From the NCBI GenBank assembly GCA_024280755.1, contig JAJRPN010000022.1, positions 1-64,000 of the forward strand: a stretch of 64,000 nucleotides of DNA, written 5' to 3'. Position numbers and translations under genes: made by a program. This stretch comes from Planctomycetota bacterium. Its GTDB lineage: Bacteria; Planctomycetota; Phycisphaerae; Phycisphaerales; UBA1924. The notes beneath the pieces were generated by a model. The model saw only the letters and a program-made list of their open reading frames with translations, did not search any database and was not told where the DNA came from. Shown here in pieces: positions 3,046 through 33,430 of the stretch. How positions within the stretch are numbered: the first letter of the stretch is position 1; every line of letters begins with the position of its first letter.

Positions 3046-3594
3046 ATGCAAACGCCCGATGCCATTCGCAAACTTTCTTCACTGATTCACGATGTGCCCG
3101 ATTTTCCGAAGCCTGGCGTTGTGTATAAGGATTTCACGCCTTTGCTTGCTGATCCGGGATCGTTGGCATTGTCGGTGGAGTTGATGGCGAATCCGTATCG
3201 TGGTCAGGGGATTGATTTGGTGGTGGGGGCGGAGAGCCGAGGGTTTATCTTTGGGATCGCGATCGCTCAATCACTTTCTGCCGGGTTCGCTCCGGTGCGC
3301 AAGCCCGGCAAGCTGCCTCGGGCGGTACATGGGATTGATTACGATTTGGAGTATGGGTCTGATCGGCTTGAACTTCATCAAGATGCAATACGCAAGGGGC
3401 AGCGGGTGTTGCTTGTCGATGATCTGCTGGCGACTGGCGGGACGATGCAGGCGAGTTGCCAGCTCGTCGAGATGACCGGGGCGGAGATTGCGGGGATTAC
3501 GGTATTGATCGAGCTTGATTTTCTCAATGGGCGAGATCTGCTTGATGGGTATAGCGAGGTGCATTCGGTGCTTCGATATGGCTCTGAGGACTGA
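3046..3594 (+). CDS. apt: Adenine phosphoribosyltransferase
   Basis: Converts adenine and PRPP to AMP and pyrophosphate in cytosolic purine salvage. The 182-residue length is normal. Diagnostic features are the N-terminal DVPDFPKPGVVYKDFTPLL, the AESRGFIFG loop, RKPGKLP, and the PRPP-binding motif VLLVDDLLATGGTM around residues 124-137. The Shine-Dalgarno is weak. It is followed by gcvP on the same strand after a gap of about 115 bases, and a functional link is not obvious. Confidence 0.96.
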   Translation: MQTPDAIRKLSSLIHDVPDFPKPGVVYKDFTPLLADPGSLALSVELMANPYRGQGIDLVVGAESRGFIFGIAIAQSLSAGFAPVRKPGKLPRAVHGIDYDLEYGSDRLELHQDAIRKGQRVLLVDDLLATGGTMQASCQLVEMTGAEIAGITVLIELDFLNGRDLLDGYSEVHSVLRYGSED

Positions 3595-28592: not shown

Positions 28593-29633
28593 TTAGCGAG
28601 CGATGGGCGACTTGCCCATGACGATGCGATTGCGCGAGCCTACCCGGACAAGCTGAGTGATGAACCGTTGGTATTCAAGATCAAGCTGGCCAAGGGTGGT
28701 GCCTTCGGGGAGATAGGTGAGCAATGTTGCTGGGCCTGTGCGTCGGGTATTGAACTGGCGGAGGGCAGGCAGGTCGAGTTTGGATCGGAAGTTGCCCAGA
28801 GCGGTATCGCTGAGGAGGGCATCGAGCGAAGCTTTATATCGTCCGCCTTGTCCTTCATTGAGAAAATGGATCAATGCCCAGACCTGTGCGTAGTAGGTGA
28901 GTGCGGTCGGTTGCCCAGTTGAGCTGCCCATTAAGTCTTGTGGGCGCAGCGAGAGCAGCGAATGGATCGGCATGAGCGTTTCGCTGTTGTATGCACTGCG
29001 GAGCTGATCGAACCGTTCGGTGTTTGCCCAGGCCATGAACCGGGGATGATCAGGGAACTGATCGTCCCACCGGAACCCCTCCATCATACACGCAACGCCC
29101 TCGTCGAGCCAGACGGGCATGGGGTCTTTGAATGTCGAGTGGGAGTATTGATGCCAGCCTTCGTGGGCGCAGATGACGAAGGAATCTTTGGGGCCGATGT
29201 CATAGAAGACACCGATTTGTTTGGCGGAGTAGCCACCGCGTTCGATGGAGAGGTAGATGCCGGCGCGATCGCCCATGAGCGAGCGGGTGAGGGTTTCCCA
29301 TTGGTTGCGGGTGTCGAAGAAGTAGGTTTCGATGGGTTCTGCTGGGCGAGGCAGGCGGGTGATGTCGCTTTGGTAGTGGAGGATCGAGAGTTCTACAAAC
29401 GGCGGCAAGCGTTCGAGAATCTTGCGATCAGTGGAGGTTGTACGGATGATCGAGTTGGGGGTATAGAACGCCCAGCCGCGATCGCCTTTGAATGTCCAAG
29501 GCTGACGGTCGGCGACGAAACGACCGATGTCGGCACTGGGATTCGTGGCTGGTTTTATCTGGCGTACCGGCGCAGAACCACACCCGGCGAGCGCAGCGAA
29601 TGAGAGTCCAAGAGCAACCAATCGAATAATCAT
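28593..29633 (-). CDS. HExxH (gluzincin-like, DUF1570-type) lipoprotein
   Basis: A 346-residue lipoprotein (ALAGCGS lipobox). The central AHEGWHQYSH motif followed by VWLDEGVACMMEG gives the HExxH plus downstream Glu arrangement of gluzincin metallopeptidases, as in planctomycete DUF1570 proteins. Probably an envelope-facing peptidase; substrate unknown. Its ATG overlaps the valS stop by four bases (ATGA), so it is translationally coupled to valS. Confidence 0.82.
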   Translation of the reverse strand: MIIRLVALGLSFAALAGCGSAPVRQIKPATNPSADIGRFVADRQPWTFKGDRGWAFYTPNSIIRTTSTDRKILERLPPFVELSILHYQSDITRLPRPAEPIETYFFDTRNQWETLTRSLMGDRAGIYLSIERGGYSAKQIGVFYDIGPKDSFVICAHEGWHQYSHSTFKDPMPVWLDEGVACMMEGFRWDDQFPDHPRFMAWANTERFDQLRSAYNSETLMPIHSLLSLRPQDLMGSSTGQPTALTYYAQVWALIHFLNEGQGGRYKASLDALLSDTALGNFRSKLDLPALRQFNTRRTGPATLLTYLPEGTTLGQLDLEYQRFITQLVRVGSRNRIVMGKSPIAR

Positions 29634-32600
29634 GCGAGTTTGTCCAACGCGGACTTGGTCGCATCGCGGTCTTTGATAAGCCCGGCGAGCTGGTCGCGGG
29701 TTTGTTGGACGAGATGAGCCGGGGCTTTGTCGGTGTAGCCCGGGTTGGAGAGCCGACCTTCGATGCCTTTGATTGACTTTTCGATGCCTGCGAGTTCTTT
29801 TTCGAGGCGCTCCTTCTCAGCGCCTTCGTCGAGTGCGTCGGCAAGGTTCGAGAGTTGGTACTCGCTGCCTTCAAAGGTGAAGCTGGCAGCTTGCCCGTCT
29901 GGGGTATTAGCCGAGATGGATTCGACACCCGCAAGGGTTTCGACGAGCGGCGACCAGCGTGCGATGTCGTCGGCGAGTTCGCCCGATGCGTGCAGTACGA
30001 TCTTGCGTTTGGGGGCGACATTGGACTGGGCACGGATCTCGCGGATGGTGGAGACCAATGAACGCACGCGCTCGTAGGCTTCCTCGGCGACCTCATCACG
30101 CAGCTCGTCGATCGGTTCTGGCCAACCGGATTGGCAGAGGGTTTCGTTGGTGCGGGTGTGTGCGAAGTTGAACCCGGTGATCTCGGGCATCGGGATGTCG
30201 GCGAAGCGTTCGCTCAGGGTTTCGGTGATGAAGGGCATGACCGGGTGCATCAGGCGGAGAATCGCCTCGAAAACAAGGCGCAAGACCGCACGCTGATTTG
30301 GATTGTCGGCGATGGTGGGCTTGATGGATTCAAGGTACCAGTCGCAGAAGTCGCGCCAGAACAGGTCGTACAAGGTGTCGGCGTAGTCCTTGAACATGTA
30401 GTTGCGTTGGGCGGTGTTGATCTTGTTGGTCGCATCAACAACGCGCGAGAGCATCCAGCGATCAATCAGGGTAAGTTCTTGTGGGTCGATCGGCATGCCG
30501 GCGGGTGGTGGTGTTTTGTCGAGCATCATCATCGAGAACTTGGCGGCGTTCCAGAGCTTGTTGCACAGGTTGCGTCCGAGATCGAACTTGGGCGAGGTGT
30601 TCTTGCCGGTGGCTTCGTCGTGCTCGACGGGCATGCGGACATCTTGGGTCTGCGTGGTCATCTGGCAGAGGGTGAAACGCATGGCGTCGGCGCCGTGGGA
30701 GTGGATGATGTCGAGTGGGTCTACGCCGTTGCCCAGCGACTTGGACATCTTGCGTCCTTCGCCATCTTGGATCATGGCGTGGATGAAGATTTCTTTGAAG
30801 GGTGCGGGGCCAACGAGCCGCGCGTGTGAGCAAGCGGTCTTATCGGTGGGTTCGGAAGACCGCTCCCTTACGGTCGCGGCTCGTTGGGAGTCGGCTTGTT
30901 CAGAGTTGGTTTGTTGGGAATCTTCGCCGAGGAAATAGCGGTTGAACATGGTCATCCGGGAGACCCAGAGGGTGATGATTTCGCGGGCGGTGGTGAGGAC
31001 GGATGATGGGTTGAAGGCCGCGAGCATGGACTCGAAATCTTCGATGCCCGAGGAAGCTTTGGCCGCGGTTGCATCTGGCCAGCCCATTGTCGAGAGCGGC
31101 CAGAGCGCGGAGGAGAACCAGGTGTCGAGGACATCGGGGTCTTGGGTGAAACCACTTGATTCTAACGCTTGAATATTCTTGTTTGACGATCCATTTGTGC
31201 AAACAAAGAATGTATAAATACGATCCTTTCCTTCGTCAACAATCGTTACTTCGTTAAGGGCGACGGATTGGCCAAGCTCGTCTTGTGCAAATGCAGCAAA
31301 ATTTGTGCTGACTCCTTGCAGAATTTCAATCAATCCTGAAGCTCCCGCCTCGCCAGCATCAAATGGTTCACCGGCGGGTATTGTAATTGTTGCACTCCAA
31401 ACGGGAATCCGATGCCCCCACCAGAGCTGGCGGGAGATGCACCAGTCGCGGAGGTTGTCGTGCCAGGTTTCGTAGGTTTTGGCGTAGCGTGCGGGGAAGA
31501 AGGACATTGAGCCGTCGGTTGATTGTGAGGTGTCTGTATTGAACGAGCCGCGACCGTGAGGGAGCGGTCCCCGGACGGTTGCGCCCAGATCACTGCCCTG
31601 TTCATCGAGGACATATTGGTTTGCTGCGTTGAATGAATCTTGTGTGTTGAGGTATCTTGTGCTTCCGTGACGGGTCCAAGACCGCTCCCTTACGGTCGCG
31701 GCTCGTTTGGTTTCCTCATTTTCACGGAGGTGTCTTGTTGCGTAGGACTTGAAGTCGTTCATCACTCGCTCGGGAGTGTCACTCGCGCCCACGACGACAT
31801 GGACATGGTTTGTGCGTACATTGCAGGCGTGGAGTGTCCAGCTTCGATGCTGGCAAACTTCGATGATTGCTTGAAGAACGACTTTGCGTTCGCACTCATC
31901 GAGTGTGACGGGTGGGTGTTTGAGGGTTTGTTCTTCTTTATCTTCTCGTTGAGTATCTGGCGAGAGGTATGGTGTTCCGGGGAGGTTGTGGTTTCTATCT
32001 GCAGAACCGTTTTCGTTTCCGTGGAGCCATGTGCCATAGGTTGTGTAGGTGATGAGGTAGGTTGTTTGGGGGGGGTGAAGACCGCTCCCTGACGGTCGCG
32101 GCTCGTTGGGAGTCGACTCGGGCCAAGCAGCGAGGGAGGATTCTGTTCGTTGGTTGGGAACCAATGCGCGTTGGGCGTTGCCTCGGAGTTTGTCGTCGGT
32201 GACTTTGCAGTACCACTGATCGCTCAGGTACGGCTCGATCGCGGCGTGGCTTCGATACGAATGACCAACGGCGTGGGTGTATGGTTTCTTGGCTTCGAGT
32301 AATCCTGCGTCGTCGAATGCTTTTTCGATGGCGATTCTTGCGTCTTCACGCGATAAGCGTACGAACTGTTCGCCGCCCTCTTTATTCGATTCGCGTTCCC
32401 AGCCGTGCTGGTCGGAGATGGATGCATCGGGGGCCATGATGTTGATGACTTCGAGGTCGTGGCGCAGCCCGATCATCCAGTCGTTTGGATCGTGGGCCGG
32501 GGTGACCTTGAGGAAGCCTGATGCGTATTGGGCTTTGGAATCTGAGCTGTTTGGATCTGCCATGACGACATAGTCATCGCCGATGACGGGGATGATTCGG

Positions 32601-33430
32601 CCGACGAACGGGAGTTTGACGCGCTGGCCGATGAACTGCTTGTGCTTTGGATCATTGGGGTTGACGGCTACACCCGTATCACCCAGGTATGTTTCTGGGC
32701 GGGTGGTGGCGACGGTGACGAACTCGCCGGTCTCGTTGTCGGCGTCGTCGACGACTGGGTACTTCATGTACCAGAAGAATCCTTCGACATTTTCCATCTC
32801 CACTTCGTCGTCAGCAAGTGCGGTTTGGGTGACGGGGTCCCAGTTGACGAGGCGTTTGCCTCGATAGATGAGCCCGTCTTTGAAGAGTTGGAAGAAGGCT
32901 TCGCGGACGGCGCGGGCGCAGATGTCGTCCATCGTGAAGCGTTGGCGATCCCAGTCGCATGAGCAGCCCATTCTCATGAGTTGCTCGGTGATGCGAGCTT
33001 CGTATTCGTCTTTGAAGTTGTGGACGAGCTTCAAGAACTCTTCGCGGCCGGGCTTGCCTTCGAGTTCCATTTTTTTGTAATCCGCGATCCCGGGTTTGCC
33101 TGCTTCTTTGAGTTTTCTGTCGACCATTGTTTGGGTGGCGATGCCGGCGTGGTCGGTGCCGGGCATCCAGAGGGTTTCATAGCCCTTCATTCTGTGCGCA
33201 CGGATGAGGATGTCTTGGATCGAGTTGTTCAGGGCGTGTCCGAGATGCAGGGCTGCGGTGACATTTGGAGGCGGGATGAGGATGGAGTAGGGCTGAGCCT
33301 CGCCAGAAAGCACACGCGCAGGATCGGCATGGAATGCACCAGAAGCCATCCATTTGTCCCAGATCCGGGTTTCGTGGTCGCTCGGGGTGTATGACTTGCT
33401 CATTGGTTCTTGTGCAGCATCGGTTGGCAT
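29630..33430 (-). CDS. valS: Valyl-tRNA synthetase with in-frame RAYT transposase insertion
   Basis: Class I aminoacyl-tRNA synthetase charging tRNA-Val. ATG 33430 has AAGGATG upstream; the open frame runs further but without a Shine-Dalgarno. Residues 62-65 are HLGH (HIGH), TTRPETYLGDTGVAV marks the CP1 editing domain, DWCISRQLWWGHRIPVW follows, KMSKS lies near 892, then the anticodon domain and a C-terminal coiled coil. The protein is 1266 residues against about 880-1000 usual. The excess is mainly residues about 439-630, between NAQRALVPNQ and FFPARYAKTYETW, which encode a whole Y1 transposase plus REP-derived peptides. A smaller REP-derived insert occupies about 847-873. The frame is unbroken throughout and all synthetase motifs are intact, so it is probably functional. 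Confidence 0.93.
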   Translation of the reverse strand: MPTDAAQEPMSKSYTPSDHETRIWDKWMASGAFHADPARVLSGEAQPYSILIPPPNVTAALHLGHALNNSIQDILIRAHRMKGYETLWMPGTDHAGIATQTMVDRKLKEAGKPGIADYKKMELEGKPGREEFLKLVHNFKDEYEARITEQLMRMGCSCDWDRQRFTMDDICARAVREAFFQLFKDGLIYRGKRLVNWDPVTQTALADDEVEMENVEGFFWYMKYPVVDDADNETGEFVTVATTRPETYLGDTGVAVNPNDPKHKQFIGQRVKLPFVGRIIPVIGDDYVVMADPNSSDSKAQYASGFLKVTPAHDPNDWMIGLRHDLEVINIMAPDASISDQHGWERESNKEGGEQFVRLSREDARIAIEKAFDDAGLLEAKKPYTHAVGHSYRSHAAIEPYLSDQWYCKVTDDKLRGNAQRALVPNQRTESSLAAWPESTPNEPRPSGSGLHPPQTTYLITYTTYGTWLHGNENGSADRNHNLPGTPYLSPDTQREDKEEQTLKHPPVTLDECERKVVLQAIIEVCQHRSWTLHACNVRTNHVHVVVGASDTPERVMNDFKSYATRHLRENEETKRAATVRERSWTRHGSTRYLNTQDSFNAANQYVLDEQGSDLGATVRGPLPHGRGSFNTDTSQSTDGSMSFFPARYAKTYETWHDNLRDWCISRQLWWGHRIPVWSATITIPAGEPFDAGEAGASGLIEILQGVSTNFAAFAQDELGQSVALNEVTIVDEGKDRIYTFFVCTNGSSNKNIQALESSGFTQDPDVLDTWFSSALWPLSTMGWPDATAAKASSGIEDFESMLAAFNPSSVLTTAREIITLWVSRMTMFNRYFLGEDSQQTNSEQADSQRAATVRERSSEPTDKTACSHARLVGPAPFKEIFIHAMIQDGEGRKMSKSLGNGVDPLDIIHSHGADAMRFTLCQMTTQTQDVRMPVEHDEATGKNTSPKFDLGRNLCNKLWNAAKFSMMMLDKTPPPAGMPIDPQELTLIDRWMLSRVVDATNKINTAQRNYMFKDYADTLYDLFWRDFCDWYLESIKPTIADNPNQRAVLRLVFEAILRLMHPVMPFITETLSERFADIPMPEITGFNFAHTRTNETLCQSGWPEPIDELRDEVAEEAYERVRSLVSTIREIRAQSNVAPKRKIVLHASGELADDIARWSPLVETLAGVESISANTPDGQAASFTFEGSEYQLSNLADALDEGAEKERLEKELAGIEKSIKGIEGRLSNPGYTDKAPAHLVQQTRDQLAGLIKDRDATKSALDKLA
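30811..30892. repeat. Inverted REP pair inside valS
   Basis: AACGAGCCGCG...AAGCGGTCTT (30812-30841) faces AAGACCGCTCCCTTACGGTC plus GCGGCTCGTTGGGAGTC (30856-30892). It is the same REP type as around the RAYT, read in frame as ATVRERSS...SHARLVGPA just before PFKEIFIHAMIQDGEGRKMSKS. Confidence 0.85.
31542..32114 (-). mobile_element. RAYT (REP-associated tyrosine transposase) domain inside valS
   Basis: In the valS reading frame, the segment from about 32070 down to 31585 encodes a recognisable Y1_Tnp/RAYT domain. It begins YLITYTTYGTWLHG, continues VVLQAIIEVCQHRSWTLHAC, carries the HUH motif TNHVHVVV (31793-31813), the candidate catalytic Tyr in NDFKSYATRHL, and the family end WTRHGSTRYL...AANQYVLDEQG. 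REP copies flank it in opposite orientation (32088-32114 and 31542-31570) and a third lies inside (31678-31707). RAYTs are single-strand HUH transposases thought to move REP sequences. No start codon with a Shine-Dalgarno introduces it, so it is made only as part of ValS. Confidence 0.88.

Follow-up and report, generated by a model that had tools for sequence, protein, structure and literature searches.

The window analysed here, a 64,000-nucleotide stretch of a Planctomycetota bacterium (assembly GCA_024280755.1, contig JAJRPN010000022.1, positions 1 to 64,000), carries on its minus strand a valyl-tRNA synthetase gene (valS, positions 29630 to 33430) that encodes 1266 amino acids and contains a transposase domain in frame. 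The frame is open from the ATG at 33430 to the stop at 29630. The loop between the (S)DQWY and DWCISRQ segments of the protein comprises 259 amino acids, versus 70 in most congeners without insert, which adds 189 codons (567 nt) net. The inserted element runs from one repetitive extragenic palindromic (REP) sequence to another over 566 nt (31542 to 32107, minus strand). An earlier sequence-only reading of the window had described an open valS frame with an extra domain at 31542-32114; the open frame was confirmed, and the coordinates were right within a few bases.

The genome to which the window belongs (G000) consists of 3.02 Mb in 41 contigs and is 94.4% complete. Its ValS showed the Pfam domains tRNA-synt_1, Anticodon_1 and Val_tRNA-synt_C, retained the HIGH and KMSKS motifs (as HLGH and KMSKS), and scored 787.7 bits with the NCBIfam valS model (cut-off 612.1). 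The Y1_Tnp domain (PF01797) was located at residues 515-593 (Pfam, E 1.9e-7), between the editing domain and DWCISRQ, and was the single PF01797 match in the genome. A second intact valS, which according to the sequence-only reading would have made this copy dispensable, was sought in the 94.4% complete genome and none was found above the valS cut-off, the other matches falling below it.

The element consists of an inverted pair of REP cores enclosing a Y1 transposase domain without an ATG of its own. The upstream core (32082 to 32101, minus strand) is translated as NEPRPSGSG in a frame that an A or G at the variable base would close, and the downstream core (31548 to 31567), which lies inverted on the plus strand, is translated as GPLPHGRGS. 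In most frames the REP can be translated, and the variable base of the upstream copy is a C, which keeps the frame in use open. The core CCGCGACCGTNAGGGAGCGG occurs four times in the window (up to two mismatches allowed, all four exact; 0.01 in shuffled sequence) and, with one mismatch allowed, 57 times in the whole genome, with no hit of a reversed-pattern control. The flanking inverted copies had been correctly recognised in the sequence-only reading, which had missed that valS holds four: a third is located in frame inside the transposase domain (RAATVRERS; 31682 to 31701, minus strand), at the same place as in a congener (G018), and a fourth further down (QRAATVRERSS; 30860 to 30879, minus strand), in the loop before the FKEIFIHAMI segment. 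The latter is also present in G018 (locus L046, about position 3521), and all four REP positions in valS are common to both genomes.

The transposase domain (31583 to 32071, minus strand; 163 amino acids) displays the signature NHVH - WT - YVLDEQ together with an extended N-terminal conservation, and was assigned to TnpAY1 class 3 by comparison of motifs alone, using those given in the sections of Quentin et al. (2018, PMC6006769) drawn on here. The histidine-hydrophobic-histidine (HUH) motif NHVH is encoded at 31799 to 31810 and the tyrosine of YVLDEQ, to which catalysis was assigned, at 31613 to 31615 (both minus strand); both histidines and this tyrosine are invariant in the 15 class-3 ValS inserts described below. 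The sequence-only reading had pointed to the tyrosine of FKSYATR instead. This second tyrosine is likewise invariant in the 15 inserts, but it lies outside the Y motif described in those sections of PMC6006769, which the YVLDEQ tyrosine fits. By its signature, the domain stands between IS200 and the canonical REP-associated tyrosine transposases (RAYTs). Scores with the NCBIfam model REP_Tyr_transpos (NF047646, cut-off 80 bits) were 30.7 bits for the G000 insert and 32.8 bits for that of G018, both class 3 and both below the cut-off; the only class-2 ValS insert scored (L042) passed it with 96.8 bits. The G000 insert also fell under the cut-off of transpos_IS200 (31.6 vs 55 bits), and no Hint or splicing domain was detected in Pfam and NCBIfam scans of the fusion.

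Compared by sequence with solved structures, the profile of the class-3 inserts gave a weak match (2f4f, E 0.008) and that of class 2 a better one (4er8, E 2.6e-11). The fold predicted for the G000 insert (mean predicted local distance difference test, pLDDT, 73.4) is that of a Y1 transposase; its top match in the PDB was 4er8, the structure of a RAYT in complex with a REP hairpin (E 1.1e-5, template-modelling (TM) score 0.49-0.52), followed by IS200/IS605 transposases. The sequence-only reading, which had named the domain a RAYT transposase, was corrected in this point, the signature being of class 3 and the score below the cut-off of the RAYT model. For the model of the fusion (1000 amino acids; mean pLDDT 74.0, predicted TM score 0.65) the first PDB match was the valyl-tRNA synthetase of T. 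thermophilus (1gax), and the ValS fold is predicted to be kept despite the insert. Segments 441-455, 465-495 and 623-638 of this model, beside and inside the insert, have a pLDDT below 50, as would be expected for flexible linkers.

The possibility that this arrangement was a single oddity or an artefact was rejected once the loops of relatives were read. A Y1 domain in the same ValS loop was found in 41 genomes in total, 15 with class-3 domains and 26 with RAYT-like class-2 domains. Within the genus (21 genomes, loop readable in 19), 8/19 carry the domain and 11/19 have none; G000 and G018 hold class 3, and G001, G008, G011, G014, G015 and G016 hold class 2. All 33 PF01797 matches of the genus are distributed between 8 in frames of 1131-1440 amino acids, all of them valS, and 25 in frames of 161-367 amino acids. 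In a sample of the family (100 genomes, 97 with a ValS match), 21/97, from 19 genera, showed a gap of at least 450 bp in the loop; all 21 were read and all were Y1 domains. In a sample of the order's remaining families, 14 of 89 genomes with a ValS match also hold the domain there. Beyond the order, the phylum survey gave no ValS pair with a gap of at least 450 bp among the matches listed. Named relatives with inserts include the Phycisphaerales bacteria UBA1910, UBA3190 and NORP244 and the Planctomycetota bacterium PNC21, and some insert-bearing assemblies consist of very few contigs (one in G110, G145 and G165, two in G051). Left out of the insertion count were a 786-amino-acid frame of G120 with a Y1 match (L109) and several frames of 300-680 amino acids (L112, L113, L117-L122, L300, L301), which had the look of free RAYT genes in open frames rich in GC. 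Elsewhere this loop is occupied by tandem repeats (L058, L104), by non-transposase inserts (L217, L038), by a peptide resembling a REP dimer (L039) or by one REP-like peptide (L057). In three further genomes of the family sample, G084 (L108), G114 (L105) and G140 (L106, L107), contigs stop inside the loop, as if a repeat had broken the assembly.

Catalytic residues are conserved across both classes. The HUH motif is intact in 40/41 ValS inserts (DHVL in G120) and the tyrosine in 40/41 (Ser in G023; G131 was read by eye). The ratio of non-synonymous to synonymous substitution rates (dN/dS) of the insert was 0.09-0.29 in the 10 pairs, out of 12, that have unsaturated dS, and that of the ValS flanks 0.07-0.46, all these values being rough since many dS exceed 1. 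This indicates that purifying selection acts on the insert. In 39/41 cases the insert has a lower third-position G+C than the ValS core; in one the two are equal, and in one the insert is higher. The sequence-only reading had left a choice between a tolerated surface-loop insertion with both activities kept and a recent arrival. The evidence favours a tolerated insertion that leaves both parts intact, as judged by the ValS motifs, the HUH motif and tyrosine, the purifying selection and the predicted ValS fold; a recent arrival is not supported, given the low dN/dS, the REP positions common to G000 and G018 and the single class-3 clade of 15 genomes.

The REP ends recur along with the domain. 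An inverted REP pair (up to three mismatches in 20) bounds 39/41 ValS inserts, compared with 0/123 shuffled controls and 0/41 cross-class controls, in which the flank of the other class was used. The pairs of class 2 are palindromes of the type GGGC..GCCC, and a foot GTGG or GTAG is present in many of them; those of class 3 have ACGAGCCGCGACCGTnAGGGAGCGG in common. In the sections of PMC6006769 drawn on here, TnpAY1 class 3 genes are described as free and accompanied by REP-like structures with the 5' foot CnGA; no such foot was recognised in the class-3 REPs studied here, whose common sequence is AACGAGCCGCGACCGTNAGGGAGCGGTC. When an ATG was sought from -25 to +8 codons around the domain start, it was present in 3/16 embedded class-3 domains (the 15 of ValS and one C-terminal fusion, L114) versus 16/18 free ones, and in 13/55 embedded class-2 domains versus 6/12 free ones. 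The C-terminal fusion (L114 in G103, positions 822-2216) is a class-3 Y1 domain fused in frame on the C-terminal side of a PseF-like cytidylyltransferase.

Other enzymes serve as hosts too. In the family sample, 46 class-2 matches had E <1e-35 with a profile that was built from ValS inserts, and so favours embedded relatives; 45 of them are in frame inside host enzymes and one is unclear, at a contig end. Eleven weaker class-2 matches sit in frames of 180-365 amino acids. The hosts of the 45, identified by eye and then checked with NCBIfam or Pfam, are ValS (18), RdgB (12), LeuS (12), MiaA (1), an HscA/DnaK-like Hsp70 (1) and Kbl (1). The LeuS units occupy two sites, ten in the editing domain and two near the YLRY segment, and one genome (G069) holds units in ValS, RdgB and LeuS. 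All 12 LeuS hosts and the MiaA host scored above their cut-offs, and the Hsp70 and Kbl hosts were matched; all 12 RdgB hosts were matched by RdgB/XTPase models below the cut-offs, as is expected because the insert splits the protein. Nineteen of the 27 class-2 units in other enzymes pass REP_Tyr_transpos, and an inverted REP pair (up to two mismatches) bounds 25/27; L287 shows four mismatches and L111 five, which is chance level. Outside the order, other RAYTs were found in frame in AlaS (L316, G258) and PurH (L327, G374), as supported by Pfam and NCBIfam. The host labels of L305, L315, L321, L323, L326 and L329, also outside the order, were given by eye alone; among these, L321, L326, L329 and L305 read as RAYTs in restriction-type methylases. 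A NuoF-like label given by eye to L325 was not borne out, Pfam placing an N6_N4 methylase in that frame.

The 15 class-3 ValS inserts form one clade among free class-3 genes (94/81; recovered in 96% of 200 bootstrap trees). In the tree of class 2, the ValS label requires seven changes (four of them forced by the starred branches), that of RdgB three and that of the LeuS editing site five; all 12 host labels together require 16 changes, versus a shuffled mean of 37.8, and no shuffle out of 200 was as low. The class-2 units appear, on this tree, to be loyal to their sites, with switching among hosts. On a ValS tree of 83 rows, with the loop removed, the insert state requires 30 changes (shuffled mean 34.7; as low in 6/200), which is an upper-side estimate, this being a quick tree of a recombining gene. 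Closely related hosts carry unlike inserts: G001 and G008 are 93% alike in the host part and 51% in the insert, and G016 and G014 are 91% and 38% alike, respectively. No significant correlation between host and insert distances was found in Mantel tests (r 0.18, p 0.11; r 0.10, p 0.25). Pure vertical descent is not supported by the Mantel tests and the sister-host comparisons; for class 3 it may still apply.

In the window, valS is mosaic. Over some 230 residues of its editing domain (about 32200 to 32890, minus strand), reaching to the last informative position ahead of the insert, it resembles the G001/G008 allele (47 sites vs 5), and the rest is G005/G013-like, namely the N-terminus (4 vs 0 sites upstream) and most of the part after the insert (30 vs 4 downstream). 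The insert thus coincides with a border of recombination, an arrangement that co-conversion would produce. Congeners without insert (e.g. G017 and G004) also have this G001/G008-type editing domain. The valS of G018 and others (L020, L040 and L041 were examined) look mosaic too.

We consider it likely that the insert is an intragenic REPtron which resides in frame, is expressed by way of the host enzyme and moves between genomes and between host genes. This reading draws on the in-frame placement, the REP ends, the intact catalytic residues, the purifying selection, the missing ATG, the recurrence in several enzymes and the repeated change of state in the ValS tree. The unit would consist of a REP, a Y1 transposase domain mostly without start codon and an inverted REP, with the frame open throughout, and would occupy a loop on the surface of an essential enzyme. 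Translation of ValS would continue straight across the insert to yield one protein, in which the REP hairpins would become short flexible linkers and the transposase would fold as a tethered domain while ValS retains its own fold. This tethered transposase could cleave DNA as TnpA-REP does, nicking and rejoining REP hairpins in the single-stranded state, and could serve the REPs scattered over the genome. Now and then the unit, moving as a whole, might be carried to the same loop of another valS allele, alternatively by homologous recombination through the conserved flanks, and it might also reach in-frame loops of other genes (leuS, rdgB, miaA and others). The element would benefit in two ways: in-frame residence in an essential gene would supply it with expression, and it would be hard to lose, because the host would survive its removal only if this were exact or in frame. 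The wider proposal, to which we give even chances, is that Planctomycetota harbour a class of mobile elements made of an unspliced, start-less RAYT domain held in frame by essential enzymes, bounded by REP ends, homing-like in behaviour and shuttling among allelic or new loop sites (in ValS, LeuS, RdgB and MiaA, and in AlaS and PurH of other lineages), for which the host would be both promoter and insurance against loss.

Several observations weigh against the intragenic REPtron. RAYTs of other subclasses abound as free genes in these genomes, and the preference of the class-2 profile for embedded relatives, noted above, has to be borne in mind, as does the upper-side character of the estimate from the ValS tree. 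No REP pair was found in the flanks searched of the G014 and G112 inserts, the REP hairpins fold no better than shuffled sequences (z -0.07 to -1.09), and 13/55 embedded class-2 domains do have an ATG close by. The single class-3 clade is explained equally well by one old insertion followed by many losses as by site-specific spread. Differences at four-fold sites gave no general sign that inserts are younger than their hosts, which leaves direct transfer undated; G001/G016 alone leans toward a younger insert, with overlapping intervals. The number of class-3 REPs does not track the presence of a class-3 gene either: 57 copies were counted in G000, 47 in G014, 37 in G016, 22 in G015, 13 each in G001 and G006, 12 in G018 and 0-4 in the rest, so that G014, G016 and G015 are rich in copies while their ValS holds a class-2 RAYT, and the class-3 bearer G018 has only 12. 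A tie between REP copy number and a present class-3 gene was rejected on these counts; earlier residents, since displaced, could explain them. In G014 no gene of class 3 was seen, and G016 shows only its ValS class-2 match.

One important question is whether these data could reflect an ancient tolerated insertion, in which the ValS loop was colonised by a Y1 gene early in the history of the order and the gene was then inherited, lost and sometimes overwritten, the unit being immobile today. We regard this as possible, though clearly the less probable account. It fits the class-3 inserts, which form one clade arranged mostly by family (e.g. the four f1 members, G203/G207, G047/G043 and G149/G044) and share all four REP positions between G000 and G018, and it fits a synonymous divergence of the inserts that resembles that of the hosts. 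It is at odds with class 2, which entered the same loop at least four times according to the starred branches (seven by parsimony) and whose same clade occurs at six or more other sites or genes, and with the unrelated inserts of sister hosts and the non-significant Mantel tests. Strong purifying selection and the retention of catalytic residues would also be expected if the Y1 domain had been domesticated, that is, recruited as a working part of ValS and of other RNA or nucleotide enzymes (e.g. for nucleic-acid binding or regulation), and several hosts are indeed tRNA or nucleotide enzymes (ValS, LeuS, MiaA and RdgB, with AlaS and PurH outside the order). Domestication nevertheless seems unlikely, given that most relatives have no insert (11/19 in the genus), that two unrelated classes share one loop, that Kbl and Hsp70 are among the hosts and that the REP ends are retained as in a mobile unit.

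The same purifying selection makes it improbable that the transposase is dead cargo, a neutral passenger of REP/RAYT DNA that lands anywhere and survives where it happens to be in frame in a tolerant loop. The non-transposase inserts (L058, L104, L217) and the REP-like peptides standing alone (L039, L057) in this loop agree with such an origin, as do the loss of the HUH motif in one insert and of the tyrosine in another, but dN/dS is far below 1 and each of these features is kept in 40/41. Removal of the insert from the protein, as with an intein, or its bypass by the ribosome is brought to mind by the in-frame position in an essential gene, the sporadic distribution and the site loyalty. We consider it very improbable, as the fusion showed no splicing domain in the Pfam and NCBIfam scans, the insert ends in linkers encoded by the REPs and the loop accepts other peptides. 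An error of assembly or annotation is hardly credible: nearly all genomes are metagenome-assembled and three contig sets (G084, G114 and G140) end in the ValS loop, but the insert occurs in 41 assemblies, single-contig ones included, and the inserts differ from one another, are always in frame and diverge with a synonymous bias.

If the intragenic REPtron reading is true, the movement of REPtrons as a unit becomes testable, and mobile nucleases would have a route into essential genes without introns or inteins. RAYTs persist for long as single, apparently useless genes, and hiding in frame in essential enzymes would offer a concrete answer to how they do so. The inserts also provide a natural catalogue of places where aminoacyl-tRNA synthetases and other enzymes can take up a complete folded domain in a loop. 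Such fusions may be lost to length filters and annotation pipelines, and caution is advised in this respect.

Among known systems, the unit is most directly comparable to RAYT/TnpA-REP REPtrons (TnpAY1 class 2), with which it has in common the HUH and Y motifs, REP ends that in many inserts of class 2 carry a foot of the GT[AG]G type, and the fold match to 4er8. The known REPtrons are free genes, whereas here the transposase forms a domain inside housekeeping enzymes, mostly has no start of its own, and recurs with its unit in many genomes. Inteins with homing endonucleases are also mobile nucleases that reside in frame in essential genes, are sporadic and remain loyal to their sites. Unlike them, the insert described here has no self-splicing part, and the domain would stay in the host protein; moreover, its nuclease is of the HUH/Y1 type, its ends are REP hairpins, and its site is a variable loop instead of conserved catalytic parts. 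TnpAY1 class 3 (Quentin et al. 2018, PMC6006769) shares NHVH, W[TA] and Y....Q, is known from Planctomycetes and is associated with many atypical REP-like repeats, but its genes are described as free, and an embedding in ValS is not mentioned in the sections of that paper drawn on here. In-frame REPs within genes, tRNA synthetases included, were already known (De Nocera et al. 2013, PMC3733652, in the sections consulted), as were the Rickettsia palindromic elements treated there, and the present case has in common with them palindromes translated in frame; those are repeats of 20-80 amino acids without transposase, while in ValS an autonomous transposase is in frame. The open-licence PubMed Central literature searched yielded no report of a transposase domain inside an aminoacyl-tRNA synthetase. 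Free RAYTs and in-frame REPs were known before, and the part that appears to be new is the transposase nested in a housekeeping enzyme.

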